A stretch of DNA of 64,000 nucleotides from Bacteroidales bacterium (GTDB taxonomy: Bacteria; Bacteroidota; Bacteroidia; Bacteroidales; Muribaculaceae), in contig JAAVFL010000002.1 of assembly GCA_014800795.1 (NCBI GenBank), forward strand, positions 62,001 through 126,000, given 5' to 3'. How positions within the stretch are numbered: position 1 is the stretch's first letter; each line of letters begins with the position of its first letter. The notes beneath the pieces are model-generated. The model made no database searches, was not told the origin of the DNA, and saw only the letters and a program-made list of their open reading frames with translations. Shown one piece after another: positions 3,428 to 62,719 of the stretch. Both the position numbers and the translations under genes were made by a program.

Positions 3428-3484
3428 ATTATGTGATTTGGAGATTTGGTTATCGGTTATTGATGTTCTGAATATTACAAGTCG

Positions 3485-3492
3485 CAAATATA
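3485..3492 (-). promoter_or_regulatory. -7 promoter element for the 44-3427 gene
   Basis: On the minus strand this reads TATATTTG, a perfect match to the Bacteroidetes -7 consensus TAnnTTTG. It lies about 58 bp upstream of the chosen start codon. No clear TTG/TTTG -33 box is seen at the usual 19-21 bp spacing, so this is a half-supported promoter. Confidence 0.5.
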
Positions 3493-12201: not shown

Positions 12202-12256
12202 GGGTTTGATATGCATGGTATATTTAAATGATATTGTTCTGTTGCGGAGGGCAGTG

Positions 12257-12547: not shown

Positions 12548-12574
12548 TTGCGAGAGAACGAGTGTGTAATTTTG
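12548..12574 (+). promoter_or_regulatory. Candidate promoter of the FAS1/SusCD operon
   Basis: TAATTTTG at 12567-12574 is a perfect -7 match. A TTG at 12548-12550 lies 16 bp upstream, shorter than the usual 19-21. The leader would be about 135 bases. Confidence 0.45.
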
Positions 12575-12717: not shown

Positions 12718-15327
12718 ATGCATTTCAAATCACACTCACATCTCTTGAAGTGCTTCTTGCTTTCGGCAACCGTTGCCTCCGGGCTGACGCTTGGCAGTTG
12801 CAAGGACGAATATCTGTATGACGACGAAGAGCCGCCCATGGAGCAACTTGGCGCGAGCATCTATGTGTACATGCAGAACGACGGACACTTTACACAGTTT
12901 CTGCGGCTGATCGATGATCTCGGCTACAGTGAGACCCTTTCACGCACCGGCAGCAAGACGCTGTTTCCGGCGCGTGACGATGCTTTTGAACGTTTCTACC
13001 GAAACAATCCCTACGGTGCCACATGCTACGAGGATCTCACACCCTCGCAAAAGCGTGCTATCATGAACTCCGCCATGATCAACATGGCGTATCTTGCTGA
13101 AATGCTCTCTAATGTAAAAGGAAACGGAGCCGCGGTGGAGGGCCTTGCCGTCCGTCGGTTTACCTCGGCCGGCATGCTCGACGACCTTGTCAAGGTCGAC
13201 GACAGCGAACTGTTTGCCAATCCGATGTGGAAACGTTTCGCCGAAAAGCCGCTGTATATGGTTCATGATGCTCCGATGCTTGTTCATTTCACTCCGAAGC
13301 AGATGACTACCATGGGAATGACCGAAGAGGATTTCTCGCTGATGCTCAACGGAGAGGAGTATGACGGTGGCACGATCTACGTGAACGGCATAAAGGTCGT
13401 TCAGACCGACATCATATGTAAGAACGGTTATATCCACGTGCTTGAGGATGTTCTTCTGCCTGCGGGAAGCATGGCTGATGCCATAGCCGACGCTCCTGAT
13501 GCTAAAATATTCTCACGTCTGCTCGACAAGTTCAGCGCGCCTTATTATGATGAATCGATCGATGCCCAGGTAAAGGAATTCTACAACGGTTCAAATCCGC
13601 TGCGCCCGTCGGTTGCCGGTGTCGATTCGATATTCACCAAGCGTTTCTTCAATGAACGCAGCTGCACGAATTCTCCTCTGGGCGAGTCTCTCTCGGGCTA
13701 TGGTCTGCTCTATTACGATCCCTCCGAGGCTACATATTCCCAGTCGGCGTCGGAACAGGATATGGGCACAATGTTCGTTCCTACCGATCAGGCCATGGAA
13801 GAGTTTTTCAACACAGGTAACGGATCTTATCTTCGCGAGGCTTACGGCTCATGGGAGAATGTGCCGACCGACATTCTCGCCACTTTCCTGAAGAATCATC
13901 AGAAACGCTCGTTCACGGCTTCACTTCCGCATGCATGGCCGACGCTTACCGATGAGACTTCGTATGCGATCAATATCAGTGCCGACAATGTGGTGCGTTC
14001 GGAAATAACCGGCAACGGTGTCGTATATTTCGTAAATACGGTTTTCCCTCCTATCGACTATCAGGGAGTGTACGCTCCGGTTCTTACAGCCGACAATACC
14101 CGGATAATGAAATGGGCCATCACCGACGACTGGAGCAACCTCAGCGATCTGGGCGCGATGCGTTATTACATGTATCTTCGCTCGATGGAGAATATGTATA
14201 ACCTTCTTGTGCCAACCGATGAGGCTCTGGCAAATTACCGCGATCCGATCTCGTGGGCTCGCGGAGGTGTGAACCGCGAGATATGGGAATTCCAGTATGT
14301 CGAGACAACGAACACCGTGCGTGCCGACGTATATGCGTCAGACGAGGCCGGTGTAAAAGGTGAATTCAAATATACTGTCACCAACAAGACAACCATCCGC
14401 AACCGTCTGCGTGATATCCTTGATCTCCATATAATCGTAGGGGATAACAGCGAAGGGGTCATGACAGGCTATATCGACGAGGGTAATGCCGGATATGTGC
14501 TTACCAAAGGTGGCGGAACTATCCGTACGCAGGGACGCGAGAACGCTCTGCGTGTCAGCGGTGCCGGCGATATGGAAGTCGGTTCGGAGGCTGCATCCGT
14601 TTTCATCGGCAATACCGGGGTGCCATGCCGTTACGATTCCGGCAACGGACGCACGTTCGTTATCGATCAGGTCGTTCACGATGCCTCCACAAGCGTTTAC
14701 ACTCTGCTTGGATCGCATCCTGAATACAAGGCGTTCTTCGACTTGTGTCTGGGCCACGACCAGGTGTTCTCGATGTTTGCCAACGATGCCGAGGTAGAGG
14801 AGATTTTCTCCAGCAAGACTACCAACTCCACCACCGGTGTAGGTATGATAGTGAACTTCTTCAATAACTTCCGCTATACGATATTCGTTCCCACAGCCGA
14901 GGCTCTTCAGCAGGCATTCGCCGATGATCCCGATCTCTACACATGGGAGGAGATAGCTCTCGACAGCGATTTTGTAAGCAAACGCCGCAAGGCGATCTAT
15001 CTGCTGCGGTTCATCCGTTTCCACTTTGTCGATAATTCGGCATTCATCACTGGTGCGCCCTACGGCCCTCTGCAGTACGAGACCGCCGCACGCAACGATT
15101 CCGACAAGTTCCACAAAGTATCGGTAGAGAGCGACGGCAGCGGTATGACGGTAACCAGCGTTGACAATCCTGCGTCGGTAGCCCGTGTGCTGACAACTTC
15201 AGGCCGTTACAACGATATGGCCCGCGACCTGATCGTGAACAACTCTGATGTGCGGCAGGCCACCGAGATTACGGCTTCTTCGCGTGCGGTAATCCATCTT
15301 ATCGACAAAGCTCTTAAATTCAATTGA
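12718..15327 (+). CDS. Four-domain fasciclin (FAS1) lipoprotein
   Basis: 869 residues with a lipoprotein signal ending in lipobox TLGSC. The residues after the cysteine are acidic (KDEYLYDDEE), which resembles the Bacteroidetes surface lipoprotein export signal. Four FAS1-like domains can be traced at about 45-250, 255-455, 460-660 and 662-869. Each has a late V-P-T-D/E-A or related segment (LFPARDDAF, FVPTDQAMEEF, LVPTDEALANY, FVPTAEALQQAF) and an ending with a buried hydrophobic strand and VL/VH. FAS1 domains in other organisms mediate adhesion. Here the gene heads an operon with two SusCD pairs, so it may be a surface binding protein that feeds the transporters. No enzyme motif is seen. 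Confidence 0.88.
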   Translation: MHFKSHSHLLKCFLLSATVASGLTLGSCKDEYLYDDEEPPMEQLGASIYVYMQNDGHFTQFLRLIDDLGYSETLSRTGSKTLFPARDDAFERFYRNNPYGATCYEDLTPSQKRAIMNSAMINMAYLAEMLSNVKGNGAAVEGLAVRRFTSAGMLDDLVKVDDSELFANPMWKRFAEKPLYMVHDAPMLVHFTPKQMTTMGMTEEDFSLMLNGEEYDGGTIYVNGIKVVQTDIICKNGYIHVLEDVLLPAGSMADAIADAPDAKIFSRLLDKFSAPYYDESIDAQVKEFYNGSNPLRPSVAGVDSIFTKRFFNERSCTNSPLGESLSGYGLLYYDPSEATYSQSASEQDMGTMFVPTDQAMEEFFNTGNGSYLREAYGSWENVPTDILATFLKNHQKRSFTASLPHAWPTLTDETSYAINISADNVVRSEITGNGVVYFVNTVFPPIDYQGVYAPVLTADNTRIMKWAITDDWSNLSDLGAMRYYMYLRSMENMYNLLVPTDEALANYRDPISWARGGVNREIWEFQYVETTNTVRADVYASDEAGVKGEFKYTVTNKTTIRNRLRDILDLHIIVGDNSEGVMTGYIDEGNAGYVLTKGGGTIRTQGRENALRVSGAGDMEVGSEAASVFIGNTGVPCRYDSGNGRTFVIDQVVHDASTSVYTLLGSHPEYKAFFDLCLGHDQVFSMFANDAEVEEIFSSKTTNSTTGVGMIVNFFNNFRYTIFVPTAEALQQAFADDPDLYTWEEIALDSDFVSKRRKAIYLLRFIRFHFVDNSAFITGAPYGPLQYETAARNDSDKFHKVSVESDGSGMTVTSVDNPASVARVLTTSGRYNDMARDLIVNNSDVRQATEITASSRAVIHLIDKALKFN

Positions 15328-15353
15328 TTTCAAACCAATCATATTTTCCCGAA

Positions 15354-18300
15354 ATGGAAAACATAAAATATACCATACTGGCACTTCTGATGGCCGCGCT
15401 CCCTTTTCTGGCTTTCGCGCAGGCCTCCGATATAGTGCGTGGAACGGTTGTCGATTCGGAAGATGAACCGATTATCGGTGCCACAATCCATGAGGTCGAC
15501 GGGAAGAACCGCGTTTACAATATGACGGTCACCGACATCAACGGTGAGTTCTCGCTTCAGGTGAAGAATCCCGCCAACCAGCTCAAGATATCGTATGTGG
15601 GTTTCAACCCCCAGGTAGTGAAGATCGCTCCTGTGGTGAATGTCACCCTTGAGGATGCCTCCACCCTTAAAGAGGTGGTTGTGACGGCTCAGCGTACGAT
15701 GAACGACGGCACAATGCCCATACCTCTGCGTGAGATTTCCGGCGCTACACAGAGTATCAACACCAAGGCTTTCGAGGGTGTGTCGGTGCAGTCGGTCGAC
15801 GATGCCCTGCAGGGACGTCTGGCCGGCCTGGATATCGTGAATGCTTCAGGCGACCTCGGTTCAGGCTCGTCGATGCGTATCCGCGGTTCCGGCTCCATCA
15901 ACTCCAACTCCACTCCTCTCATCGTGCTCAACGACATCCCTTACGAGAGTCATGTCGACAGCCAGTTCGATTTCAATAACGCCACTTCCGAGCAGTTCGC
16001 GAATCTTCTGAGCATCAACCCAGAGGATATCGAGGAGATCACGGTGCTTAAGGATGGTGCTTCGGCGGCTATCTACGGATCGCGCGGTGCCAACGGTGTG
16101 ATCATGATCAAGACCAAACGTGGTGTGAAGGGTCCGCCAAAGGTTCAGTATCTCTTCAAGTTCTCGGCCCACAGACAGCCGCGCGGCCGCAAGATGCTCA
16201 ACGGCGACGACTATACCATGTTGATGAAGCAGGCATATTTCAATCCCCGCCAGGACGAGAACGCCTGCGATATCCCTGAATTCAACTACGATCCCACCTT
16301 CTCGGAATACGAGCAGTTCAACAACAATACCGACTGGGTGGATGCCGTCACACAATACGGTTATACCTACGACAATACGGTCAATGTGACCGGCGGCGGC
16401 GACAAGGCCCGTTATCGCGTGTCGCTCGGCTACTACAATCAGTCGGGTACGATGATCAAGCAGCACCTCGACCGAATATCATCGCTTATGAATCTCGACT
16501 ATCAGGTGAACGACCGTCTGCGCTTCTCGACCGAGTTCTCGCTTACCCATACCAAAAACAAGCAGAACTACAAGGAATCATGGGATTCGGAAGGCTTGCT
16601 CGACATAGCCTACCGCAAGATGCCTAACGTGGGTATCTACCGTCAGGATGAGTTCGGCCGCGATACAAATGAATTCTACACTATCCGTCAGGATTCACGT
16701 CTGGACGACAACCAGAAGCAGCTGCTCAACCCGGTGGCACTGGCGAATCTCGCCAAGCACGACGAGACCAACATGCGCATCATTCCTACCCTGCGTCTGC
16801 AATATGAGATTCTCGATCCGGCAAAACACCGTCTGCGTTATGCCGGTTACGTTCAGTTCGACATCGAAAACAAGCGTGAAGACAAAGCGCTTCCCCGCGA
16901 GGTGACATCGCAGAACTGGTCGAGCAGCAATGTAAACCGAATGTACGGGCGCGAAGCCGAGAGCTTGAACGTACAGACAAAACACGACCTTCTGTTCGTG
17001 CCCAAGATAAACGATAAGAATTCGCTTATGGTATATGCCGCATGGGAGCTTACCACGGGTAACTCGCAGTATCAGGAGTTCCGCAAATACGGTTTGCCGA
17101 ACGGGGTGCTGAATCCTACAGAGGCCGGCTATGCCGACACTCAGGAGAGTGTGCGCAGCGAATGGCACTCGATGGCCTACATGGGACGCGTTCACTATGC
17201 TTTCGACAACCGCTACATACTTGACGCTACGGTTCGCCGCGACGGATCGACCCGTTTCGGTCCCGGTCATCGCTGGGGCACCTTCCCCGCCGTGTCGGTG
17301 AAGTGGAATCTTTCCGACGAGCATTTCATGGAGTGGAGCCGCGAGTGGCTCGACCTGTTCGGTATCCGTGCCGGCTATGGTAAGACGGGTCGTATGCCCG
17401 ATGCCGAGTACCTTCACTATGCACGCTACGGCAGCGGCGGCGGCAACTATATCGACATCCCTACCATGAAACCCTCTACAGTGCGTCTGTCGAATCTCAA
17501 ATGGGAGACCAACACCTCCTATAACCTCGGTTTCGACCTCAACATGTTCAATTACAAATATAACCTCGACGTCAATGTGTTCCATGAGAAGAACCGCGAC
17601 CTGCTTTTCTCTGATTTCACTATCCCGTCGTCGACAGGTTTCGGATCTGTGAAGTATATCAACGGCGGCTCGCTCGAGAAGAACGGCTGGGAGGTGAACT
17701 TCTACACGACCAATCTCGTAAAGGCCGGCGACTGGAGCTTCGACGTTAACTTCAACCTTGCCAACTACAACAGCAAGATTACCGAGCTTCTGCCGGCGAT
17801 CGCCGAGATGAACAAGGGTGAGTTCGATGGTAACAACGGTTCCTATCTGAGCCGTTTCCAGGTAGGAAATGCCTACGGATCTGTTTACGGTTTCCGCTAC
17901 AAGGGTGTCTACCAGTATTCGGAATACAACGAGAACGGCTCGTCGCCGGTAGTGCGCGACGCCTCGGGCAATGTGGTGCGCGACGCCTCAGGTAATCCGA
18001 TGTATATGACCTTCAAGGATGGTTACCGGTTCCGCGGCGGCGACGCCATCTATGAGGATGTGAACCACGACGGTGTGATCGATGAGCTCGATATCGTATA
18101 TCTGGGCAACTGTAACCCGAAATTCTATGGTGGCTTCGGATTTACCGTGCGCTGGAAGAATCTGTCTATGAATGCTTTCTTCAACTTCCGCACAGGCAAC
18201 AAGGTGGTGAATTACGCCCGCATGAATTCGGAGAATATGTACACCAACAATAACCAGAGCATTGCCGTGAACTGGCGCTGGCGTAAGGAGGGTGACCAGA

Positions 18301-18605
18301 CAGAGATGCCCCGCGCGCTTTATCAGTATGGCTACAACTGGCTCGGAAGCGACCGCTTCGTGGAGGACGGCTCGTTCGTGCGATTCAAATATCTCACCTT
18401 CAACTACGAGTTCCCCAAGAAGGTTGTGGAAAGCGTGAAATTGTCGCAGGTAAACATGTATCTGACACTCAACAATCTCTGGACCTGGACAAAATATACC
18501 GGTGTAGATCCGGAAATTTCTCCCAACCAGTACGGTATCGCCGAGGACCGCAGTAATACTCCGCGCTCGCAGTATTTCACCTTAGGTGTTACGGTAGGTT
18601 TCTGA
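15354..18605 (+). CDS. SusC/RagA-type TonB-dependent outer-membrane transporter (first pair)
   Basis: 1083 residues, started at the Met of MENIKYTILALLMAALPFLAFA, which gives a signal peptide; an upstream TTG start lacks one. A carboxypeptidase-regulatory-like domain (VRGTVVDSEDEPIIGATI) is followed by the TonB-box-like LKEVVVTAQ. The plug domain has SVQSVDDALQGRLAGLDI, IRGSGSINSNSTPLIV and ILKDGASAAIYGSRGANGV in its usual form (VLKDGASAAIYG here). The 22-strand barrel follows and ends in Phe. Partner is the SusD at 18638, 33 bp downstream. The cargo is unknown; the operon contains no glycosidase. Confidence 0.95.
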   Translation: MENIKYTILALLMAALPFLAFAQASDIVRGTVVDSEDEPIIGATIHEVDGKNRVYNMTVTDINGEFSLQVKNPANQLKISYVGFNPQVVKIAPVVNVTLEDASTLKEVVVTAQRTMNDGTMPIPLREISGATQSINTKAFEGVSVQSVDDALQGRLAGLDIVNASGDLGSGSSMRIRGSGSINSNSTPLIVLNDIPYESHVDSQFDFNNATSEQFANLLSINPEDIEEITVLKDGASAAIYGSRGANGVIMIKTKRGVKGPPKVQYLFKFSAHRQPRGRKMLNGDDYTMLMKQAYFNPRQDENACDIPEFNYDPTFSEYEQFNNNTDWVDAVTQYGYTYDNTVNVTGGGDKARYRVSLGYYNQSGTMIKQHLDRISSLMNLDYQVNDRLRFSTEFSLTHTKNKQNYKESWDSEGLLDIAYRKMPNVGIYRQDEFGRDTNEFYTIRQDSRLDDNQKQLLNPVALANLAKHDETNMRIIPTLRLQYEILDPAKHRLRYAGYVQFDIENKREDKALPREVTSQNWSSSNVNRMYGREAESLNVQTKHDLLFVPKINDKNSLMVYAAWELTTGNSQYQEFRKYGLPNGVLNPTEAGYADTQESVRSEWHSMAYMGRVHYAFDNRYILDATVRRDGSTRFGPGHRWGTFPAVSVKWNLSDEHFMEWSREWLDLFGIRAGYGKTGRMPDAEYLHYARYGSGGGNYIDIPTMKPSTVRLSNLKWETNTSYNLGFDLNMFNYKYNLDVNVFHEKNRDLLFSDFTIPSSTGFGSVKYINGGSLEKNGWEVNFYTTNLVKAGDWSFDVNFNLANYNSKITELLPAIAEMNKGEFDGNNGSYLSRFQVGNAYGSVYGFRYKGVYQYSEYNENGSSPVVRDASGNVVRDASGNPMYMTFKDGYRFRGGDAIYEDVNHDGVIDELDIVYLGNCNPKFYGGFGFTVRWKNLSMNAFFNFRTGNKVVNYARMNSENMYTNNNQSIAVNWRWRKEGDQTEMPRALYQYGYNWLGSDRFVEDGSFVRFKYLTFNYEFPKKVVESVKLSQVNMYLTLNNLWTWTKYTGVDPEISPNQYGIAEDRSNTPRSQYFTLGVTVGF

Positions 18606-18637
18606 TCCCGCCACGTAAAAAAAACAAGCTACTACCA

Positions 18638-20224
18638 ATGCAAAATCAAGTGAACACAATGATAAAGACACTCAGCAAGGCAATGTTGGCGGCTGTCGCC
18701 GCTATGAGCCTTACCGGTTGCGACGATTACTTCGATCTGCAGCCGAGCAACGAGATGGTTCTCGACGAGTTCTGGAAAAGCGAGGAGGATGTGTTGAGCG
18801 TTACAGGCTCATGCTACCGTACGATGCAGGAGGGCGACTTTCTGAAGCGCGCGCTGGTGTGGGGTGAGTTCCGCGGCGATAACGTGATTCTGTCGCAGAC
18901 CAATACCGACAACGATCTCCGCTATATAGCCAATCTCAACCTCCTTCCATCGAACTGGTATACAAACTGGGGCAAATTCTATGAAGTGATCAATCTGTGC
19001 AACACAGTTGAGTATTTCGCTCCCGGGGTGCGCGAAGAGGATCCCAATTTCACCCAGAGCCAGCTGAACGCATATCTGGCAGAGGTGAAGGGGCTGCGTG
19101 CGTGGAGTGCTTTCACTCTGGTACGCGCCTTCCGCGATATCCCCTTCACCACGGTTCCCACAATCGACGATACCGAGGAGTTCTCGCTTCCTCAGCGCGA
19201 TCCCGACGAGATTATCGATTTTCTGATTCAGGATCTGAAGGATATTGAGCCTTATGCGGCCTCGACTTATTCGAACCGCACATATACCAAAGGCCGTATC
19301 ACTCAGGCCGCCATCCGTGCCATCATTGCCGACATGTGTCTGTGGCGCGGACGCTATGATGAGGTTGTGGACTATTGCGACCGCATTCTCAACGATGCCA
19401 ACAATCCTCTGATTCTCGAAAGTTCCATGAGTTTCAGCCGCAACCTCTTTATCGACGGTATAAGCTCAGAGACTATTTTCGAGCTGCAGTTCAACCAGCA
19501 GAACAATATGATCAATTCGGTGGTGGGAGAGTATTACGCACTGCCAACTCAGGGTGGCAGCCAGAAGCTGACCGCAACCGAGATAGGCGACGAAACCAGC
19601 TCTCTGTTCGCAGAGACCGATATCCGCCGTAAGACAAGCATGTATTCCAACAGTGGAAACTGCATGATCCAGAAGTATGTAGGCTATCTTACCGCCAACG
19701 AACTTTCCGGAACCTCGAACATAACCAGCGCTTCGTACCATACGGGAGATATCAGTCCCCACTGGGCGAACTGGATCGTTTATCGCCTGCCGGATATTTA
19801 TCTGATGAAAGCCGAGGCACTTTGCGAATCGGGTACAGACTTGGAGGAGGCGTTCCGTCTGGCATGCATCACCTACGACCGCGCCAATCCCGAGGCGGGT
19901 GCCGGATCGCTGAGTTTCGAGAACTATTCGTCGCGTGAGGCTCTCCTTAACTTCATATTCGATGAGCGCCGCCGTGAGTTCCTCTTCGAAGGCAAGCGCT
20001 ATTTCGATATCCTGCGCCGCATATCGCATCACCGCGACCAGTTCCGCACGCTGGTGAGCACATATCTCGCGCCGAAGTATGCCGATCTCGACCAAAGCAC
20101 TGTAAGCTCGAAGCTGAGCGTGTACGACGCTCTGTTCGTTCCGATCAACGACAAGGAACTGCGTGCGAACCTGCTACTGGTTCAGAATCCGTTCTACAAG
20201 ACTTCAAGCGACATTTCCCACTGA
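18638..20224 (+). CDS. SusD/RagB-type substrate-binding lipoprotein (first pair)
   Basis: 528 residues. The lipobox SLTGC is followed by DDYFDLQPS, the normal SusD opening with acidic residues for surface display. An internal Met seven codons later gives a shorter signal peptide and may be the true start. The SusD fold is indicated by EVKGLRAWSAFTLVRAFRDIPF, IRAIIADMCLWRGRYDEVVDYCD and the C-terminal FDERRREFLFEGKRYFDILRR. It forms the lid of the transporter encoded at 15354. The ligand is not predictable. Confidence 0.95.
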   Translation: MQNQVNTMIKTLSKAMLAAVAAMSLTGCDDYFDLQPSNEMVLDEFWKSEEDVLSVTGSCYRTMQEGDFLKRALVWGEFRGDNVILSQTNTDNDLRYIANLNLLPSNWYTNWGKFYEVINLCNTVEYFAPGVREEDPNFTQSQLNAYLAEVKGLRAWSAFTLVRAFRDIPFTTVPTIDDTEEFSLPQRDPDEIIDFLIQDLKDIEPYAASTYSNRTYTKGRITQAAIRAIIADMCLWRGRYDEVVDYCDRILNDANNPLILESSMSFSRNLFIDGISSETIFELQFNQQNNMINSVVGEYYALPTQGGSQKLTATEIGDETSSLFAETDIRRKTSMYSNSGNCMIQKYVGYLTANELSGTSNITSASYHTGDISPHWANWIVYRLPDIYLMKAEALCESGTDLEEAFRLACITYDRANPEAGAGSLSFENYSSREALLNFIFDERRREFLFEGKRYFDILRRISHHRDQFRTLVSTYLAPKYADLDQSTVSSKLSVYDALFVPINDKELRANLLLVQNPFYKTSSDISH

Positions 20225-20269
20225 TTTCGTTCTCTCATTCCAAAAATCCCATATTTTATCTGAAAAACA

Positions 20270-22147
20270 ATGGAAATGACCAATATAAGAATCGCAATGC
20301 GCAAGGCCGGAACCTCTCTGCTGCTTGGTTCGCTGGCAGTATGCGGCGGTATGTTCGCGACTTCATGCGACGACGATGTGGATATGAACGACGAATCGTT
20401 CTATACCTTTACCGGTCAGACGGCATCGAGTTTCTGTCATGAGGACGGACGCTTCACCATTTTCTCGCAACTGCTCGACGATACCGGAACGGCGGGATTG
20501 CTCTCGACCTACGGATATTATACTCTTTTCGCACCGACCGACGAGGCGATGGAGGCTTATTTCACCAGAAACGGCATCAGCTATGCCTCCCTTACCGATG
20601 AGGAAAAGAGCGAGATGGTGTTCAATCATGTGGTGAAAAGCCTCGGCGTAAGCTATACTTCCGACTACTTCGAGGAGGGTTCGCTTCCGGAACCTACTAT
20701 GAGCGACAACTATATCACGGTATCGTATGATGTGGATGCTCTCGGTTCGGGTCTTACGGTTTATCTCAATAAGAATGTGCCTGTGATAGAGAAGGATGTG
20801 GAGGTTCACAACGGTGTTGTCCATGTAGTGGGCAATGTGATAGTGCCGGCTACCGACTTTATCACCGATGTGCTCGAACAGAACGAGACTACTTCATTCT
20901 CGCTTTTCGCGCAGGCTCTGCGTGCGACAGGGTTTTACCGCGCTATCGAACCGATACGCGATGAAAGTTATGTAGCTCCTTACCCTGATGGGGAGCTGAC
21001 ACGCGGCGAAAGCAAATTTCAGGTGCCGACTGTAAAGCGCTATGGTTTCACGGTATTCGCCGAGCCTGACGAGGTGTTTGCAAATGCAGGGATAACCACT
21101 ATCGAGGAGCTTGCCCGCTATGCCGAGACATACTACGGCACAGAAAACCGCGGCGATTACACCTCCGAGAACAATGCGCTCCATAAGTTTGTGGCTTATC
21201 ATATTCTCGACCGCCAGATGGGTACCAACGAGTTCCTCTACAGCGGCAGCACTACAGTGAGCTCGCGTATGAACGAGCGCTGCGAATACTACGAGACAAT
21301 GCTGACCTACCGCCTTATGGAGATCAAGGCCGGCAACCGTATCAATTACCGCACCAAGACACGCACCTGCGTAGGCATCAACGAGGCCGAGAGCAATCTC
21401 AGCGCGGTCAACGGTTTTGCCCACTGTCTCGACGCTATTCTGGTGTATGACGAGGATGTGATGGTAAACGAGGTGCTTAACAAGCGCATACGTTTCGATT
21501 TCTATAACATTCCCCCGGAACTGACAAACAACAATATCCGCTGGAAACTTATGAATCCCGGCTATTCTGGTTACGTGGTTCCGAATGATTTCTGCGGCGA
21601 ACATCTGCAATTCAGCGACGAGACCCAGATCACGATGTGGTCGTCGGAAGGGTGGACAAACTTCGAGGAGGATGAGCTTAAGCTCAACGGCTGGTATGAC
21701 TTCACTCTCCGTATGCTTCCTATGCCTCCGGGCTCCTACGAGGTGCGTATCGGTTACCGTCAGGAGAGCTGGCGCGGTATCGCCCAGCTGTTTGTCGACG
21801 GTGAGATACAGGGTATTCCCCGCGACCTCCGTATTTCAGGAACCGATCCCATGGTGGGTTGGATCGATGATACTGAGAATCCTGCCGTCGATTCGGAAAA
21901 TGACAAGTCGATGCGCAACCGCGGCTATATGAAGGCTCCGGCAAGCATCTACACACCTCAGGCAGGGGGCGTTTCCCTCCGCCGCATGAGCGCCTGCCTC
22001 CGCATCATCGTGGGTCAGTTCACCTGGCAGGAATACGGGCCTCACTTCCTGCGCGGCAAGAATGTGTACGACCCCAATCAGGAATTCCACGGCGACTATA
22101 TCGAGATTATCCCCGTAAGCCAGATCGACAAGGAGGATATCTATTGA
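20270..22147 (+). CDS. FAS1-domain lipoprotein with C-terminal beta-sandwich domain
   Basis: 625 residues with lipobox FATSC followed by the acidic DDDVDMNDE, predicting surface exposure. FAS1 domain 1 spans about 50-205 (YGYYTLFAPTDEAMEAYF ... VHNGVVHVVGNVIVP). FAS1 domain 2 spans about 205-425 (YGFTVFAEPDEVFANAGI ... NGFAHCLDAILVY). Residues 430-625 form a separate region rich in beta strands and aromatic residues (PMPPGSYEVRIGYRQ, AQLFVDGEIQG), like a ligand-binding jelly roll. It sits directly after the first SusCD pair and may be its accessory surface-binding protein. Function is unproven. Confidence 0.85.
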   Translation: MEMTNIRIAMRKAGTSLLLGSLAVCGGMFATSCDDDVDMNDESFYTFTGQTASSFCHEDGRFTIFSQLLDDTGTAGLLSTYGYYTLFAPTDEAMEAYFTRNGISYASLTDEEKSEMVFNHVVKSLGVSYTSDYFEEGSLPEPTMSDNYITVSYDVDALGSGLTVYLNKNVPVIEKDVEVHNGVVHVVGNVIVPATDFITDVLEQNETTSFSLFAQALRATGFYRAIEPIRDESYVAPYPDGELTRGESKFQVPTVKRYGFTVFAEPDEVFANAGITTIEELARYAETYYGTENRGDYTSENNALHKFVAYHILDRQMGTNEFLYSGSTTVSSRMNERCEYYETMLTYRLMEIKAGNRINYRTKTRTCVGINEAESNLSAVNGFAHCLDAILVYDEDVMVNEVLNKRIRFDFYNIPPELTNNNIRWKLMNPGYSGYVVPNDFCGEHLQFSDETQITMWSSEGWTNFEEDELKLNGWYDFTLRMLPMPPGSYEVRIGYRQESWRGIAQLFVDGEIQGIPRDLRISGTDPMVGWIDDTENPAVDSENDKSMRNRGYMKAPASIYTPQAGGVSLRRMSACLRIIVGQFTWQEYGPHFLRGKNVYDPNQEFHGDYIEIIPVSQIDKEDIY

Positions 22148-22172
22148 ATACTCATGAAATAATCCGATTGAA

Positions 22173-23753
22173 ATGAAAAAGATAACATATAACCTTATGG
22201 CTATGGCGGTGGCGGTATCGGCGCTTGGCTCCTGCTCTGACAAGTGGGACGACCATTACGCTCCCGAGGCTGCGGGCTCGTCCGACGCCACAGTCTACGA
22301 GATGATCAAGAACGATCCGGAGCTTGCTCTTTTCGGCAAGATGATAGATATAGCCGGTTACAGCGATCTGCTCAATACTTCACAGACCTTCACCGTTTGG
22401 GCTCCTTCCGACGCTTCTCTGGCATCGGTCGATCTGAGCGATACGGACGAAGTGAAGCGCATAGTCGCCAATCATATAGCGCGCTTCAATGTGTCGACGG
22501 CTAATCCGGCCGGCCAGGGAGTGAGGATGTATAATGGCAAGATGCTGTATTTCGAGGGTAATACCTTCGGTGGTGTGGCTATGGAGCGTAGCGATGTGCT
22601 TGCCCGCAATGGTGTTCTGCATGTTCTTACCGAGCGGATTCCCTATTCCTACAATATCCGCGAGTATATCGATACCCATGCCGAGACAACATCTATTTCA
22701 GAATTTCTGAGCCGTTTCGATGAACTGCGTTTTGATGAGGCTTCATCGATCCCTCTGGATATCGACGAGAACGGCAACACGGTATATGACTCGGTTAAGG
22801 TGCAGTATAACCGTCTGCTTGACCATCCTGTCTACGGGCTTGGCAACATTCTGTCGGAGGATTCCGTGTTCACGATGCTCGTGCCTGACAATAATGCGTG
22901 GCGTACGGCCTACGAGCGCATCCGTCCGCTTTACGAGGTGTTCGACGAGAATGAGGCTGTAGCCGATTCGGTCAGCGATGTGCAGACTTCTCTGGCAGTG
23001 ATGCGCGATTTCATATATCGTGCCCGCATCACATCTCCCTCCGGTAAAATGCGTGCCACATCCGGTACGGAGATTTCCGATATGGCGTCGTTCTTCGCAG
23101 GCGCGGAAAAGATCAATGCCAGCAACGGTATGATATGGCTTACATCTGATGTGAATTATCCTATGGAGGAGACGTTCAATCCGATAATCCGCGTGGAGGC
23201 CGAGGATCCGGCGGGGCGCGTGCGCGTGGGCAACACAACAATCTATACCCGTGTCATTTCCACCGACAACCAGTTCGCGTCCGAAATCAGTGAAGGTTCC
23301 TATATCGAGGTTCTTGGAGCGTCGGCGTCGACGCAGCCTGCCGTCACGTTCGATATTCCGAACACTCTTTCCGGTGAGTATGATATTTACGCGGTGTTCG
23401 TGCCGGCTTCGGTCGACGACGAGACCGTGACCGGCGAACAGACTTGTCTCAGCTTCATTCTCACCTGCAACAATGAGAATGGGAAGAAGACTGAAAAGGC
23501 TTTCTCAAGCGCAGATTTCGTAACCGAGCCAACGGCAATGACAACCATAAAGGTTGCCGAGGGCTACAAATTCCCGGTTTCGAATTATTACGACAATCTT
23601 TGGCTGATGGAGGACGGACACGATGCGAGCCTCATCAATACCACAACGAAGCTAAACGTGAAGACCAATGTGTCGAACTCGGAGTATAACAGCGGCAAAT
23701 ATGTGCGCCGCTTCCGCATCGACTGCATTTATCTGGTACCCACTCAAAAGTAA
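22173..23753 (+). CDS. FAS1-domain lipoprotein
   Basis: 526 residues with lipobox ALGSC followed by SDKWDDHY. FAS1 domain 1 is at about 35-155 (TFTVWAPSDASLASVDLSD ... ARNGVLHVLTERIPY). A second, more divergent FAS1 domain is at about 160-330 (SVFTMLVPDNNAWRTAYERI ... SNGMIWLTSDV). Residues 335-526 form a beta-rich tail (TFDIPNTLSGEYDIYAVFVP) similar in plan to the tail of the protein encoded upstream. It starts 25 bp after the preceding gene and lies 12 bp before the second SusC, so they are co-transcribed. Probably a surface binding partner of the second transporter. Confidence 0.85.
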   Translation: MKKITYNLMAMAVAVSALGSCSDKWDDHYAPEAAGSSDATVYEMIKNDPELALFGKMIDIAGYSDLLNTSQTFTVWAPSDASLASVDLSDTDEVKRIVANHIARFNVSTANPAGQGVRMYNGKMLYFEGNTFGGVAMERSDVLARNGVLHVLTERIPYSYNIREYIDTHAETTSISEFLSRFDELRFDEASSIPLDIDENGNTVYDSVKVQYNRLLDHPVYGLGNILSEDSVFTMLVPDNNAWRTAYERIRPLYEVFDENEAVADSVSDVQTSLAVMRDFIYRARITSPSGKMRATSGTEISDMASFFAGAEKINASNGMIWLTSDVNYPMEETFNPIIRVEAEDPAGRVRVGNTTIYTRVISTDNQFASEISEGSYIEVLGASASTQPAVTFDIPNTLSGEYDIYAVFVPASVDDETVTGEQTCLSFILTCNNENGKKTEKAFSSADFVTEPTAMTTIKVAEGYKFPVSNYYDNLWLMEDGHDASLINTTTKLNVKTNVSNSEYNSGKYVRRFRIDCIYLVPTQK

Positions 23754-23765
23754 AGACCCAATAAC

Positions 23766-26700
23766 ATGAAACGCATATTCAGAAATATATCCGGAAAATC
23801 AGTTCCCGTAGCGGCCGCTCTGCTGGCTGCATCTCTGGGCGCCGCTCCGGCGGCTATGGCCGACCATGAGGTGAAGGGTACCGTGACCGACGGCTCCACA
23901 GGCCGTCAGCTTGCCGGCGCACGTGTGACAGTTGTCGATGGCTCGGCTGCCGCTATGACAGGCGACGAGGGCCGATATTCCATTACAGCACCTTCCGGCA
24001 AGGTGATGCTGCGCATCGAGGCCCCGGGATTCAATCCGGTGATCGTGCCTGTGCGCGACAATGAAACTCTCGACATCAGACTTTACACCGCAACCAAGGG
24101 CGACAGCTTTTTCGACAGCGACGACCTGTTCTCGGCAACTTCGGCAGATTCTCGCTCGGAATTCGGAATCGGCGAGACAGCCGGCGACCAGAGCGTGGCC
24201 GATCTTCAGGGACAGCTCTTCAGCATCAGCCGCTCGGGCATGCCCGGTGCCGGACATGCTGTGTTCGTGGAGGGTCTCCACTCCATAAACTCCGGTTCAC
24301 AACCGCTTTATGTTGTCGACGGAGTGGAATGGAGCGTTACCGAAAGTGATTTTCAGCTTCTTTCAGGACATTATAACAATCCTCTGGCGCTTATAGATCC
24401 GAAAGATATAGAGAGTATCCAGGTGATGCGCAACGGAACAGCGATTTACGGTACGCGTGGTGCCAACGGTGTGATACTTATCAATACGAAACGTGCCCGT
24501 ACCGAGGCTACGGAGATCGAGGCATACGCGATGCTCGGTTTTCGTGAGAGGCCGAAAAGCATTCCCGTGATGAACGGGCAGCAGTATCGCCTGTATGTGT
24601 CGGACATAATGAGCGGCATGTTCGAGAATTCCTCTATGGTGAACCGCTTCGGCTTCCTCAACGATGATCCTTCGTCGGTAAGCTATGCCGCCAACCACAA
24701 CGATACCGACTGGATGGATCTTACCACACGCACGGGTCTGATGATGAACTACGGCGTGAGTGTCCGCGGCGGTGACGACCGCGCTCTCTACGGGTTCTCG
24801 CTGGGTTACGCCAAGAGCGACGGCAACGTGAAGGAGACTTCGTTCGACCGGCTTAACGTGCGCTTCAATTCCGATATCAATCTCTGGAAAGGCTTCAAGC
24901 TGCGCTTCGATATAGCTTTCGCCCAGGCGACATGGAATCTGTTCAGCGACGGTATCGACGAGGTAGGTTCCCCTTATTATCTCAGTCTTATCAAATCGCC
25001 TCTCTATCATCCGAATGTGATCTCAAACAAGGGTGAGGTGACACTGAAATATTCAGATGTCGACGAGCTTGGAGTAGGCAATCCGCTAAGCATTATCGAT
25101 CTCGGGAAGGGTGACAGCCGCAACTACCGGTTCAATCTGAATGCAGCTCCCCAATATCGTTTCAATGACAAGCTGATGATACAGGGTCTGGTAGGTTATA
25201 CCTTCGACAAGATCAAGGATAACTCTTTCCTGCCCGACTATGGTGTGGAAGATATAGCTCTTACTAACAGCAACGGCGAGGTGTACGCCACTATGAAAAA
25301 CAGGGTGCAGAACCTCATGAACCGCCATACGACTTTCATCACCAATATCTTTGGCGAGTACAGTCCGCTGAAAGGCTATACCAACAATCTCGACCTGCGT
25401 CTGGGATGGCGTTTCCGCAACGACACATACCGCATGGGCTACGGAGAGGGTCTGAATACAAGCTCCGACTACATGAACTCGATGGGTAACACCACCGCCA
25501 CTCTGCGCACTACCTACGGTTACGACTGGAAGGAGCGTGAGATGGCATGGTATCTCACCGCCGACTATGCGTTTATGAAGCGCTATCTTATCGGCGTGTC
25601 GGGCACTATGCAAACCTCGAACCGATTCGGCAAACATGCGGCCGGTGCCCCGGTGAGGCTTGGCGGCGTAAGCTGGGGGCTTTTCCCCTCGGTGAATGCG
25701 GCATGGATTCTCAGCTCCGAGGATTTCATGAAGAACCTGAGTTTCATCGACTTCGCCAAAATCCGCGTGGGATGGGAAATGACAGGCAACGGTAACCTGC
25801 CTGTTTATGCCAACCGCACATATTTCGGATCTGAACAGTTTACCAACAGCACGTTCGGTCTGGTTATACAAAATATAGGCAATGACCGCCTCACCTGGGA
25901 AACCACCAACAGCTTCCGTGTGGGTCTCGACATGAGCCTGTTCAGCAACCGATGGAACTTCAATTTCGACTACTATAACCAGCATACCCGCAATCTTATC
26001 GTGCGTAAGGAGATGCAGGATGTGGCCGGACTGGAGTATTTCTGGACCAATGGCGGCCGGCTCACCAACAACGGCGTGAACTTCGCCACAACAGTACGCG
26101 CTCTCGACCTGCGCGACTGGAAACTCGATGTCGGTGCTGCCATCGGCCACTATGTGAACCGTGTTAAATCGCTTGCCGACGGCTCGTTCATCACCGATAT
26201 AAACGGCGCCCAGATACTCACGGAAGAGGGTAATCCGCTCGGTGTATTCTACGGTTACCGCACCGAAGGGGTGCTGTCAACTTCCGAGGCTGCCAGCGAG
26301 GCAAATCTGCGCATACGCAATGCCAACGGTACGTACACCTCGTTTCAGGCCGGTGACATGCGTTTTGCCGACAACGGCGACGGCATAATCGATGAAAAGG
26401 ACCGCACGATCATCGGCGATCCGAACCCCGACTTCTTCGGAAACTTCAATTTCCGCCTGCAGTGGAAGAATCTCACACTCAGCACTCTGTTCACCTACAG
26501 CTACGGCAACGACGTTTACAACGCCCTCCGTGCGAGCCTCGAGAGCGGTTCCGGGATACAGAATCAGAGTGTGGCTCTGATGAACCGCTGGATGGTGAAC
26601 GGTCAGCAGACCGATATTCCCCGCGCTACCTACGGCGACCCGATGGGTAACTCGCGCTTCTCCGACCGCTGGATCGAGGATGGCAGCTACCTTAAGTGGA

Positions 26701-26915
26701 AGAGCATCCAGCTTACCTACGATATCCCCGTACGCTCTACCTTCCTTCAGGGTGTGTCGGTATGGGTTGCGGTCAACAATCTGTGTACATGGACAAAGTA
26801 TCTGGGTCCCGATCCGGAGTTCTACAGCGGTGTGTCGCCCCTGTATCTCGGTATCGACAACGGAATGACCGGCAGCTCGCGTGAGTTCAACTTCGGTGTG
26901 AAAATTAATCTCTAA
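23766..26915 (+). CDS. SusC/RagA-type TonB-dependent transporter (second pair)
   Basis: 1049 residues with a signal peptide ending AAMA. A carboxypeptidase-regulatory-like domain opens with VKGTVTDGSTGRQLAGARV. The plug is present (QPLYVVDGVEWS, IESIQVMRNGTAIYGTRGANGVILI), but the usual VVVGYG-like stretch before it is replaced by an acidic, Ser/Asp-rich segment (DSFFDSDDLFSATSADSRSE), so the TonB box is not obvious. The barrel contains the usual NGVNFATTVRALDLRDWKL and DWKERE-type strands and ends FNFGVKINL. The partner is the SusD 14 bp downstream. It differs clearly from the first transporter, so the two pairs probably carry different ligands. Confidence 0.93.
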   Translation: MKRIFRNISGKSVPVAAALLAASLGAAPAAMADHEVKGTVTDGSTGRQLAGARVTVVDGSAAAMTGDEGRYSITAPSGKVMLRIEAPGFNPVIVPVRDNETLDIRLYTATKGDSFFDSDDLFSATSADSRSEFGIGETAGDQSVADLQGQLFSISRSGMPGAGHAVFVEGLHSINSGSQPLYVVDGVEWSVTESDFQLLSGHYNNPLALIDPKDIESIQVMRNGTAIYGTRGANGVILINTKRARTEATEIEAYAMLGFRERPKSIPVMNGQQYRLYVSDIMSGMFENSSMVNRFGFLNDDPSSVSYAANHNDTDWMDLTTRTGLMMNYGVSVRGGDDRALYGFSLGYAKSDGNVKETSFDRLNVRFNSDINLWKGFKLRFDIAFAQATWNLFSDGIDEVGSPYYLSLIKSPLYHPNVISNKGEVTLKYSDVDELGVGNPLSIIDLGKGDSRNYRFNLNAAPQYRFNDKLMIQGLVGYTFDKIKDNSFLPDYGVEDIALTNSNGEVYATMKNRVQNLMNRHTTFITNIFGEYSPLKGYTNNLDLRLGWRFRNDTYRMGYGEGLNTSSDYMNSMGNTTATLRTTYGYDWKEREMAWYLTADYAFMKRYLIGVSGTMQTSNRFGKHAAGAPVRLGGVSWGLFPSVNAAWILSSEDFMKNLSFIDFAKIRVGWEMTGNGNLPVYANRTYFGSEQFTNSTFGLVIQNIGNDRLTWETTNSFRVGLDMSLFSNRWNFNFDYYNQHTRNLIVRKEMQDVAGLEYFWTNGGRLTNNGVNFATTVRALDLRDWKLDVGAAIGHYVNRVKSLADGSFITDINGAQILTEEGNPLGVFYGYRTEGVLSTSEAASEANLRIRNANGTYTSFQAGDMRFADNGDGIIDEKDRTIIGDPNPDFFGNFNFRLQWKNLTLSTLFTYSYGNDVYNALRASLESGSGIQNQSVALMNRWMVNGQQTDIPRATYGDPMGNSRFSDRWIEDGSYLKWKSIQLTYDIPVRSTFLQGVSVWVAVNNLCTWTKYLGPDPEFYSGVSPLYLGIDNGMTGSSREFNFGVKINL

Positions 26916-26929
26916 TCTCCTGATCAAGT

Positions 26930-28597
26930 ATGAAAGTTATGAAATTCAGACATATTATTCCGGCTCTTATGCTTGCCGCCGGCGCCCTGTCGCTCGGTTC
27001 GTGCGAGGATATGATGGATCTCGGCAGCGACGACTATGTGTTCGGGGAGGATAACCGCCTTGATTCCGCCAACGATTCACTGTATTCATCGGTCGGTATC
27101 CTGTCGCAGCTCCAGAAAGTAGGGGAGCGCTATGTTCTTCTGGGTGAGCTCCGCGGCGATCTTGTAACTGTTACTGAAAATGCTGATATGTCGTTGCGCG
27201 AGGTATCGGAATTCACCGCCGGCAGCGATAACGTCTATGCCGACCGCCGCGACTACTACAGTATAATCAACAACTGTAACTACGCCCTGGAGCGGATGGA
27301 TACCACCATTGTGGAGCATCAGAACAGGGTGATGGTTCCGGAATATGCCGCCATCCGCTGTATACGTGCGTGGACATATTTCCAGATGGGTCTTACCTAC
27401 GGCAGCGTGAAATATGTGGACAAACCTATTCTTTCGCTTGAAGAGAGCGAGATGGAGTATCCCGTAATCGGGCTCGACGATCTTGTCGACAGACTGATAG
27501 ATGATATATCGCGCTATGCCGCAGAAAAAACGCCCGACAATGGATTGGGATCGGTATATTTCCAGCCCCGTCTTCTGCTTGCCGACATGTTTCTATACCG
27601 CAACAGATATGCTGAAGCTGCCCGTCTGTACTATGAGTACATCAACGAGTCGCACCAGACAATGTCCTCATACTACAGCAACTGTTGGGAAACGGCTCAG
27701 GCTTCGGAAATCAAGACCCGTGAATTTTTAGGTTTTACCACCTACTATATCACCGGTATCCGCTATAATACGGATCTGCGTGCCGACCGTCCGAATCTGA
27801 TCAATCTCACATACAGCGACACACCTTCACTTGTCGCCGCACGCTGGTGGGTCGACGAGATGGCTGCTGTCACCCATTTCCACATCAACAATCAGGGAGC
27901 GCCTACCATTCAGGGATATCTCGAGGGTGACACCCGCGGACGCTTTGTTTTCGCCAATGGCCTCACTCAGGAGAGTGTCTCGGTAGGCTACGCAGGTGAG
28001 TCGGCTGAAACGCTTATCACCAAATATCGCAATCAGATCACCGATATCAACGATCAGCTTACCAATCCGTCGAACCCTCTCGCCTCGGGATGTATGATCA
28101 ACAGCCTTCCGCTCATGCGCCTGTCGCATGTATATCTGCGCTATGCCGAAGCTCTCAACCGTATGGGCAAACCTACCATGGCGTTCGCCGTGCTGAAATA
28201 TGGACTGAAGCCCGATGTGATGGCCGATCCCGAGAAGATAGATCCCGCTGAGCTTGAGGATAATCTCGCATGGACAAATTTCTCGTCGACCGACTACAGC
28301 GGCAGCTACGGTACGGCCTGCCACGGACGCGGTCTGGGTATCGATCTCCAGCAGTCGACTTATGTGATTCCCGAGTTCGACACTCCGGAGCAGACTATGG
28401 AATGGGTAGAGGATGAAATCATGTATGAGCTGGCGGCTGAAACTCAGTTCGAGGGCAACCGCTTCTTCGATCTGGTGCGTGTGAATGCTCACCGTGGCGG
28501 AACGGAATATTTCGCCGACCGTGTGAGCCGCCGCTTCGAAAACCGCGACGCGGCCCGTACCCGGTTGCTCGACCGAGCCAACTGGTGGATAAAATAA
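26930..28597 (+). CDS. SusD-like substrate-binding lipoprotein (second pair)
   Basis: 555 residues with lipobox SLGSC followed by EDMMDLGSDD. It has the SusD tetratricopeptide-like core (CIRAWTYFQMGLTYGSVKYVDKPI, PRLLLADMFLYRNRYAEAARLY), a variable middle with GRFVFANGLTQES, and the C-terminal MYELAAETQFEGNRFFDLVRVNAHRGG. It is the last gene of the operon. The next gene begins 268 bp later and is likely transcribed separately. Confidence 0.93.
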   Translation: MKVMKFRHIIPALMLAAGALSLGSCEDMMDLGSDDYVFGEDNRLDSANDSLYSSVGILSQLQKVGERYVLLGELRGDLVTVTENADMSLREVSEFTAGSDNVYADRRDYYSIINNCNYALERMDTTIVEHQNRVMVPEYAAIRCIRAWTYFQMGLTYGSVKYVDKPILSLEESEMEYPVIGLDDLVDRLIDDISRYAAEKTPDNGLGSVYFQPRLLLADMFLYRNRYAEAARLYYEYINESHQTMSSYYSNCWETAQASEIKTREFLGFTTYYITGIRYNTDLRADRPNLINLTYSDTPSLVAARWWVDEMAAVTHFHINNQGAPTIQGYLEGDTRGRFVFANGLTQESVSVGYAGESAETLITKYRNQITDINDQLTNPSNPLASGCMINSLPLMRLSHVYLRYAEALNRMGKPTMAFAVLKYGLKPDVMADPEKIDPAELEDNLAWTNFSSTDYSGSYGTACHGRGLGIDLQQSTYVIPEFDTPEQTMEWVEDEIMYELAAETQFEGNRFFDLVRVNAHRGGTEYFADRVSRRFENRDAARTRLLDRANWWIK

Positions 28598-31144: not shown

Positions 31145-31249
31145 TAGTGTAAAACCGGCGGTTGAAGAAGCCCTGATTGCAAAAATTTTCATATTTTTGA
31201 ATGAGGATTGTATGCCGGACTATCTGTAGTACCATTATCACATCTTACC

Positions 31250-44023: not shown

Positions 44024-44055
44024 TATTCCTCTTCCTGAAATTTATTGAATTCCCC

Positions 44056-44088
44056 ATGGCGGGCGCCCGTAACAGGGCGCCCGGCCAT
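44056..44088. other. Strong GC-rich hairpin between GH36 and GH92
   Basis: CGGGCGCCC (44060-44068) and GGGCGCCCG (44075-44083) form a perfect 9-bp stem with a 6-base loop, extended by ATGG/CCAT outside. There is no T-run, so it may attenuate or stabilise the operon mRNA rather than fully terminate it. Confidence 0.65.
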
Positions 44089-44125
44089 CGGTATTGTGTA
44101 TTCTTTCCATATAAACCGAATTCTC

Positions 44126-61813: not shown

Positions 61814-62719
61814 ATGAGAAATTTAGCTACGTTGGCACTCGCTTCTCTCTCAATTTTTTCTATGGGAGCGGCTGCTCCAGTCGCATCTCCCGGCAAATAC
61901 CACGAACCGATCGGGATCGAGCGTCAGTGGCGTCACTATCATCCGGGCAAAATCAATTTTCAGATAACCTCGCCGGAAAAGGATGGAGCGAAGATTTACA
62001 GCAGCATAGTGTCTGACCCCGATTCCTATATCACCGACAATGCCCGTCGTGTGATTCAGACACTGTATTTTTCACCTGCCGACAGTATTCCGGATATCCG
62101 TGTGATCGACTACGTGGTCCGCGATTTCGACGGTATCTCTTACAAGAGTGGTGGAGGCGACAATGTGCGCATCGACTACAGCACCGACTGGATCGAGAAG
62201 AGCTTTGCCAATAATGACACTCTGAAGCTCGACTATGAAACCCGCGGTGTGATATACCACGAACTTACCCATGCTTTCCAGCTCGAGCCGAAAGGTTGCG
62301 GAAGCTACGACGGCAAGAGCCCCTACTGGGCGTTTATCGAGGGCACGGCCGATGCGGTTCGTCTGGCATGCGGCTGTTTCGAGCAGGATTTCGCTTCGAA
62401 GGACCGTCCCCGCGGAGGCAACTGGATGAGCGGCTACCGCATCACGGGCTATTTCCTCTACTGGCTGAACCAGAACAAAGACAAGGATTTTATACGCAAA
62501 TTCAACCGCACGGCGCTGGATGTCGTACCTTGGTCCTGGGACGAGGCTATGTACCATATCCTCGGACGTGATGAAAAGAATTCGGTAGCTTCGCTCTGGA
62601 ATGAATATATGGCCGCTGTCGGCGACGAGGAGGATGCAGCGAGAGCGCAGCCGGTTGTTGCTGAAGATCAGCAACCTGCCGAAAGAAAACACAGGAAAGG
62701 GAAACACCACCGTAAATAA
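61814..62719 (+). CDS. Basic secretory protein family metallopeptidase
   Basis: 301 residues with a signal peptide ending GAAA. The zinc motif H149-E-L-T-H153 lies in RGVIYHELTHAFQLEP. IEGTADAVRL and GGNWMSGYRITGYFLYWLNQ are typical of the plant-type basic secretory protein family (BSP). The C-terminal 40 residues are charged and lysine-rich (AERKHRKGKHHRK), likely disordered. Probably an exported protease. It lies 58 bp after the phosphodiesterase and 32 bp before the GH92, so these three may be one transcript. Confidence 0.88.
   Translation: MRNLATLALASLSIFSMGAAAPVASPGKYHEPIGIERQWRHYHPGKINFQITSPEKDGAKIYSSIVSDPDSYITDNARRVIQTLYFSPADSIPDIRVIDYVVRDFDGISYKSGGGDNVRIDYSTDWIEKSFANNDTLKLDYETRGVIYHELTHAFQLEPKGCGSYDGKSPYWAFIEGTADAVRLACGCFEQDFASKDRPRGGNWMSGYRITGYFLYWLNQNKDKDFIRKFNRTALDVVPWSWDEAMYHILGRDEKNSVASLWNEYMAAVGDEEDAARAQPVVAEDQQPAERKHRKGKHHRK

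Follow-up and report, generated by a model that had tools for sequence, protein, structure and literature searches.

What is the function of fasciclin-domain (FAS1) lipoproteins that are encoded in one gene array together with two SusCD transporters? This question is raised by a locus of a Bacteroidales bacterium of the family Muribaculaceae (assembly GCA_014800795.1, contig JAAVFL010000002.1). The window analyzed here comprises 64,000 nucleotides, positions 62,001 to 126,000 of the contig, and stems from a genome of 2.72 Mb that is 99% complete. Seven open reading frames (ORFs) on one strand occupy positions 12718-28597 of the window, in the order FAS1A–SusC1–SusD1–FAS1B–FAS1C–SusC2–SusD2:

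12718..15327, + strand: FAS1A, lipoprotein, probably four FAS1 domains (Pfam Fasciclin, 77.7 bits)
15354..18605, + strand: SusC1, TonB-dependent transporter (Pfam Plug, CarboxypepD_reg)
18638..20224, + strand: SusD1, lid lipoprotein (Pfam SusD_RagB, 81.7 bits)
20270..22147, + strand: FAS1B, two FAS1 domains and a C-terminal jelly roll resembling carbohydrate-binding modules (CBMs) (Pfam Fasciclin, 74.8 bits)
22173..23753, + strand: FAS1C, two FAS1 domains and a C-terminal CBM35/CBM6-like jelly roll (Pfam Fasciclin, 41 bits)
23766..26915, + strand: SusC2, second TonB-dependent transporter, of a lineage other than SusC1 (Pfam Plug, CarboxypepD_reg)
26930..28597, + strand: SusD2, second lid lipoprotein (Pfam SusD_RagB, 39.6 bits)

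The gaps between the ORFs are 26, 32, 45, 25, 12, and 14 bp when the ATG at 15354 is chosen as the start of SusC1 (the longest ORF starts with a TTG at 15324). The first-pass annotation had described a tightly packed seven-gene operon order, and this is borne out by the ORF calls and the Pfam matches. The genes include two pairs of adjacent susC and susD, and all three FAS1 proteins exceed the Pfam Fasciclin cut-off of 22 bits. We consider it rather probable that the seven genes together code for a single, conserved module of the outer membrane for glycan uptake, with FAS1B and FAS1C as surface glycan-binding proteins (SGBPs) and FAS1A as a scaffold. The three surface lipoproteins of the FAS1 type would serve two different SusCD "pedal-bin" transporters. 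In FAS1B as well as in FAS1C, a lipid anchor would be followed by tandem FAS1 domains, which act as a stalk or a scaffold for docking, and at the far end by a CBM35/CBM6-like jelly roll, which would grip the glycan and pass it to the SusD lids. FAS1A would probably be docked on the transporters.

A lipobox-like cysteine followed by acidic residues was read by eye in all three FAS1 proteins and in both SusDs (e.g., LGSC-KDEYLYDDEE in FAS1A and LGSC-EDMMD in SusD2). In the alignments the cysteine is kept in 75/75 FAS1B, 39/39 FAS1C, and 29/29 FAS1A sequences, and at least two of the six following residues are acidic in 72/75, 33/39, and 25/29 of them, respectively. The earlier claim that all FAS1 proteins are lipoproteins with acidic residues after the cysteine thus holds at the level of sequence patterns. 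Acidic-signal lipoproteins encoded beside susD have the sequence pattern and the position of SusE/F-like SGBPs, and the view that FAS1 proteins take the usual SGBP places is supported, as is the conserved linkage to SusCD described below.

Four FAS1 domains had been proposed for FAS1A. Three are matched by profiles, at residues 44-249 (probability 98.5%), 251-446 (about 88%), and 659-868 (95%), but the third in order is scarcely matched (488-509, probability 29%), so that the fourfold repeat is likely only; the sequence profiles revealed no sandwich beyond the repeats. The AlphaFold (AF2) models of FAS1B and FAS1C (predicted local distance difference test, pLDDT, 90.4 and 89.5) contain tandem FAS1 domains followed by a C-terminal jelly roll at residues of about 404-616 and about 336-525, respectively, as expected from the earlier reading of two FAS1x2 proteins that end in a beta-sandwich. 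The FAS1 parts of both models match FAS1 structures, with TGFBIp/periostin-type proteins on top, and the predicted jelly rolls resemble CBM35, CBM22, and CBM6 in fold. Residues E342, E344, and D517 are invariant in 39/39 FAS1C sequences; they may be the ligands of a structural calcium site as in CBM35/CBM6. NCBIfam gave no name to any of the three FAS1 proteins.

Is the arrangement more than a local oddity? When named genomes were scanned with an alignment of FAS1B, 78 loci were kept out of at least 515 relatives; by construction, all 78 contain FAS1B. Some of them come from one genome and are therefore not independent, and they overlap with the genome samples described below: at least four were also counted in the family sample, and seven contigs were, judged by their lengths, apparently counted twice (L088/L089/L091/L093/L094/L119/L160 correspond to G477/G006/G002/G070/G038/G369/G255; L numbers denote loci, G numbers genomes). 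The full seven-gene order was found in 31 of the 78 loci (runs of FAS1B collapsed), among others in records titled Prolixibacteraceae, Paludibacter, Dysgonamonadaceae, Prevotellaceae, and Geofilum rubicundum, the last of which has a cultured strain, JCM 15548, that carries the cassette (L129). Sorted by hand, 49/78 loci are linked to SusCD; 18 of these are incomplete, and 13 of the 18 extend to where the contig or stretch ends. The first SusCD is missing in L134, and L092 has no annotated SusD1 under the ORF picking used.

The family, order, and phylum samples comprise 149, 393, and 395 genomes, respectively, the own genome being included each time. A SusD1 profile (E<=1e-60) matched 53/393 genomes of the order sample and 13/395 of the phylum sample. 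In the order sample, a FAS1 gene lies within 1.5 kb downstream of at least 60 of the 73 SusD1 matches with 300 bits or more and of 1/12 matches with 200-300 bits; all SusD1 places were compared with the FAS1 places among the matches listed, which makes 60/73 a lower bound, and FAS1 places on contigs without a nearby SusD1 match were left out. Among 11 stretches of the order that were read, that of G477 is complete, those of G312, G365, G289, and G531 follow the order up to the cut, and those of G427 and G328 are too short to judge. Eight second-tier loci (L203-L210), chosen as FAS1 had already been seen near SusD, comprise six complete ones, L210 with FAS1A in two ORFs, and L208, which is cut by the contig end. 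Beyond the own genome, the 12 matches in the phylum sample are all labeled as lying outside the order but in the same class, and they fall into three families. The nine best-scoring of these 12 were read (G642, G673, and G717, all below 300 bits, were left out). Although these loci were located via SusD1 and not via FAS1, SusC1-SusD1-FAS1 is present in 9/9 and the whole seven-gene order in 7/9. In two variants outside the order, L218 and L219, both SusDs are SusD1-like and only two FAS1 proteins were seen; L218 adjoins a BNR-repeat (sialidase-like) protein.

Within the family, FAS1 occurs in 14/149 genomes; the nine other congeners listed all lack it. Ten of the 14 have the full order, including G114 with a doubled FAS1B, G073 with an extra FAS1B fragment, and G006, whose FAS1B was missed by the ORF picking and then found separately. 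The module genes of G127 are divided between two contigs; the contig of G101 stops within SusC1, and FAS1A of this genome is present in two ORFs. The SusD1 profile matched 12/149 genomes at the same threshold, all of them FAS1-bearing; the FAS1-bearing G076 and G101 gave no match. A second FAS1-SusCD type was seen in G076 (L036, G076:C1) and G034 (L037, G034:C12), where a lone SusCD pair precedes just one FAS1 protein, which is about 240-250 aa long.

A chance neighborhood is therefore rejected, as the complete order recurs in the listed loci and outside the order. The FAS1-SusCD linkage is conserved across relatives, and the first-pass annotation correctly noted such neighborhoods in other Bacteroidales but fell short of their actual spread, because the seven-gene order extends beyond the order Bacteroidales. 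Judged from these comparisons of gene content, the module is old and patchily widespread; its recurrence, with gene order kept, in distant relatives of the class makes it look like an old machine for nutrient uptake.

The two transporters are not recent copies of each other. In a tree of 28 cassettes with a background of only six SusC rows, among which long branches were met, SusC1 and SusC2 fall into separate clades, both with a support of 100 in the Shimodaira–Hasegawa-like approximate likelihood ratio test (SH-aLRT); the SusC1 clade unites the SusC1 of the window with 27 others. A recent tandem duplication of one SusCD was rejected on this basis. By eye, the inner branching of both clades is alike. 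The pairwise distances of the seven proteins correlate with r 0.86-0.96 (25 cassettes), and the mean pairwise identity ranges from 0.33 for FAS1C to 0.52 for SusC1.

This co-inheritance bears on the idea that the FAS1 proteins are adhesins for host matrix or mucus that are merely co-expressed with uptake genes. FAS1 is best known from adhesion proteins of the TGFBIp/periostin type, the top fold matches here, and the literature offers support in parts: PMC6032426 ties bacterial FAS1 to host interaction, and a passage of PMC10199937 interprets a FAS1 protein that is strongly transcribed in a flavobacterial symbiont of mussels as indicative of adhesion, a remark that stands beside a discussion of SusCD and is not linked to it. 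PMC6032426 states that one FAS1 domain per protein is typical of prokaryotes; its section on bacteria does not mention SusCD. However, the joint inheritance of all seven proteins is more in line with one machine than with an adhesin added to it, and, in contrast to the tandems of TGFBIp and periostin, the proteins described here are bacterial lipoproteins that are linked to SusCD and carry a CBM-like end. In addition, the module is present in records of Paludibacter, Prolixibacteraceae, Marinilabiliaceae, and Geofilum rubicundum. The adhesion-coupled or host-matrix-directed function that had been suggested for the locus is thus unsupported, and we regard an adhesin role as very improbable.

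The same observations, i.e., the kept order and the fact that three FAS1 proteins are inherited along with two distinct SusCDs, would also be expected if the FAS1 proteins were ligand-free structural bridges that join two unlike transporters in one complex. The motif NDKxMRNRGYMKGP, which is conserved in the FAS1B sandwich although the enzymes around the cassettes differ, agrees with such a bridge. However, FAS1B is duplicated in tandem in the cassettes of L116 and L125, and in 29/78 listed loci it occurs without SusCD in the available stretch. A purely structural role is therefore quite unlikely in our view, and SGBPs within a glycan-uptake module remain the favored interpretation.

What might be taken up is indicated by the genes around the module:

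3632..5182, - strand: sulfatase with a lipobox-like cysteine, putative member of the locus (Pfam Sulfatase)
7111..9747, - strand: GH2, beta-mannosidase-like (Pfam)
9808..12216, - strand: GH95, divergent from FAS1A (Pfam Glyco_hydro_95_cat, 457.8 bits)
12567..12574, + strand: possible Bacteroidales-type -7 element TAATTTTG 5' of FAS1A (pattern match only)
28866..30929, + strand: FG-GAP repeat protein, with a DUF6383-like C-terminus below the family cut-off (Pfam)
31208-33304 and 33355-35802, + strand: two GH27-like proteins (Pfam Melibiase_C domain only)
35831..39844, + strand: hybrid two-component sensor/regulator (Pfam Reg_prop, Y_Y_Y, HisKA, HATPase, Response_reg, HTH_18)
39903..41849, + strand: SASA-type acetylesterase (Pfam SASA, 64.9 bits)
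41879-44023, + strand: GH36 (Pfam)
44045-46306, + strand: GH92 (Pfam)
46333-48042, + strand: GH110-like protein with GLAA-B beta-barrel domains (Pfam)

The locus had been described as devoid of enzymes. This is true inside 12718-28597, but genes for glycoside hydrolases (GHs) and esterases flank the module on both sides: according to Pfam, eight such enzymes, the hybrid two-component sensor, and the sulfatase are encoded within 20 kb. Linked carbohydrate-active enzymes (CAZymes; GH95, GH2, GH36, GH92, GH110-like, SASA) and a regulator thus accompany the two susC–susD pairs, and by its gene content the window's module together with its neighbors is a polysaccharide utilization locus (PUL). No linked enzymes or regulator were seen in the short flanks that were read beside several distant cassettes. 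The end of the locus was placed at 48042, because genes for a tRNA synthetase, a pseudouridine synthase, and a polyprenyl synthetase follow on the opposite strand. An ORF of 1147 aa at 44-3487 had no Pfam match.

The locus would be controlled by the hybrid sensor. The -7 element upstream of FAS1A was assigned by the motif TAnnTTTG, which we assume to be that of the Bacteroidales; TANNTTTG occurs 31 times in the window compared to 20.5 expected sites, and scans for sigma-70 promoters and terminators gave no signal above chance level.

GH95 presumably represents the alpha-L-fucosidase/galactosidase family, and, as we infer, the enzyme set of the window suggests terminal fucose and alpha-galactose residues like those of host glycoproteins. 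GH95 enzymes also act on plant glycans. The GH and SASA enzymes mostly carry type-I-like signal peptides (by eye), so that trimming is probably periplasmic. Large, mostly intact branched oligosaccharides or glycopeptides with terminal fucose and alpha-galactose would be imported and then trimmed by periplasmic exo-enzymes (GH95, GH2, GH27-like, GH36, GH92, GH110-like, and acetylesterase). The C-terminal end of the FG-GAP protein looks by eye like a type IX sorting pattern, and such a protein is also placed after SusD2 in several relatives.

Some of these neighbors recur. GH95 lies divergently beside FAS1A in 12/12 cassette genomes of the family, with the other enzymes varying, and near the cassettes of G312, G477, and L211, the latter outside the order and with GH88. 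GH115 was found in L213 and a sugar kinase in L212, and other loci carry GH43, GH29, GH51, or GH88. From the representative loci and 75 neighboring proteins (75 of 90 listed, family-type and some near-duplicate neighbors being left out) no single substrate emerged; genes related to fucose, arabinose, uronate, and sugar kinases are among those seen. The 75 neighbors, from the cassettes L100-L165, include 17 proteins with the type IX sorting domain Por_Secre_tail, nine with a Glyco_hydro_cc domain, and seven with an H-type lectin domain. In L100, the immediate upstream neighbor of FAS1A combines all three domains, and relatives of this protein flank FAS1A in several other loci. Por_Secre_tail is found at seven places in the own genome; a search for SprA_N gave no match anywhere, controls included, and is hence uninformative on type IX secretion.

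A similar locus was found in a genome labeled as another family. SusC1 of the window shares 80% identity with its counterpart in L088 (G477), with which it groups before the Duncaniella copy, and FAS1B is 69% identical to the L088 copy compared to 41-63% for copies of the same family. G477 has the same GH95, GH2, FG-GAP, GH27-like, sensor, and SASA genes. As far as these identities indicate, the whole locus was probably transferred between families. The locus type of the window, with GH95 and the sensor, was also seen in L179-L183 of other families of the order (G312, G477).

Several observations weigh against a glycan-uptake module with dedicated SGBPs. The C-terminal domains are similar in fold to CBM35/CBM6/CBM22, yet nine of them had no match to Pfam CBM families up to E 10, so that they are filed as CBM-like only; sandwiches of FAS1B and FAS1C showed no likeness in a sequence comparison; and jelly rolls also have different functions, as the list of fold matches includes Cry toxins and a laminin domain. 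In 29/78 listed loci a FAS1B-like gene is present but the available stretch has no SusCD, hence FAS1B is not tied to this transporter. The module is patchy (SusD1 in 12/149 family, 53/393 order, and 13/395 phylum-sample genomes) and has variants without FAS1C (L119, L157, G369), with rearranged genes (L160, G255b, G466), or without a recognized FAS1A (G255a). Correlated distances are expected for linked genes even without contact, and co-inheritance is therefore no proof of a physical complex. No endo-acting surface enzyme was recognized at the locus of the window, and the signal peptide of the GH110-like protein ends near a cysteine and is ambiguous. Lastly, the enzymes around the cassette are not conserved and several distant cassettes adjoin genes without evident glycan role; with changing or absent enzymes, a single glycan class is unproven.

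The solo FAS1B-like lipoproteins (L095, L101-L103, L128, L130, L154, L158, L163, and others) stem mostly from ruminant-gut Bacteroidaceae records. Several adjoin genes for NAD synthase and a ClpB-like protein, and L154 has five in tandem.

The changing enzymes also favor a RagAB-like import of a non-glycan such as a peptide, a glycopeptide, or a cofactor, with the neighboring CAZymes being incidental, and genes for an amidase, a DUF4301 protein, or ATP-binding cassette (ABC) proteins indeed adjoin cassettes in several ruminant-gut records. However, PUL-type enzymes, where present, are glycan-active and recurrent, from the GH95 of all cassette genomes of the family to the enzymes outside the order, and FAS1B and FAS1C carry CBM-like domains. 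We thus consider a non-glycan substrate unlikely and uptake of glycans the better explanation.

How does the module compare with known systems? The levan and dextran utilisomes of Bacteroides thetaiotaomicron, as far as outlined in the sections consulted of PMC7618045, consist of SusCD, SGBP, and GH, and share with it the SusCD core with adjacent genes for surface lipoproteins. In contrast, the present system has two unlike SusCD pairs, three FAS1 lipoproteins, putative FAS1 stalks, and no recognized surface hydrolase. SusE/SusF and DUF1735-type proteins (PMC11216935, in the part consulted) are likewise lipoproteins of PULs with an N-terminal spacer and a variable C-terminal module, but their spacer is an Ig-like beta-sandwich instead of tandem FAS1. 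The rhamnogalacturonan II (RG-II) locus of B. thetaiotaomicron (BT1024-BT1030), considered as a possible further case of the same seven genes, was dropped, because the list given in PMC10434189 has BT1026 as a DUF4957 protein, which argues against FAS1C there. Among the matches listed for fasciclin/FAS1 in the open full-text literature (subscription papers and preprints lay outside the scope), the passages retrieved contain no description of FAS1 in a SusCD locus; fasciclin is mentioned in the retrieved part of PMC7661554 only for an Acidaminobacter bin.

A bolder version of the uptake module is a "double utilisome" distributed across the class, in which the two unlike SusCDs and the three FAS1 lipoproteins would form an obligate complex, with FAS1 as docking scaffold, for a conserved class of branched glycans, i.e., a stand-alone importer with swappable or absent enzymes. 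This is a tentative proposal, which may be correct but is not what we expect.

The system is a variant of SusCD uptake, with ordinary enzymes and an unusual design of two transporters and three FAS1 proteins in a kept gene order. The common view of a SusCD system is that of a single transporter pair whose accessory proteins change rapidly. In the present module, two unlike SusCD pairs and three FAS1 proteins keep one order in Bacteroidales and in families beyond, while the enzymes change. This makes a question raised in PMC7618045, in the part consulted, testable, namely, whether the parts of complex PULs are interchangeable or assemble into a single machine with several transporters. And FAS1, known mostly from adhesion, gains a likely role in bacterial nutrient uptake.

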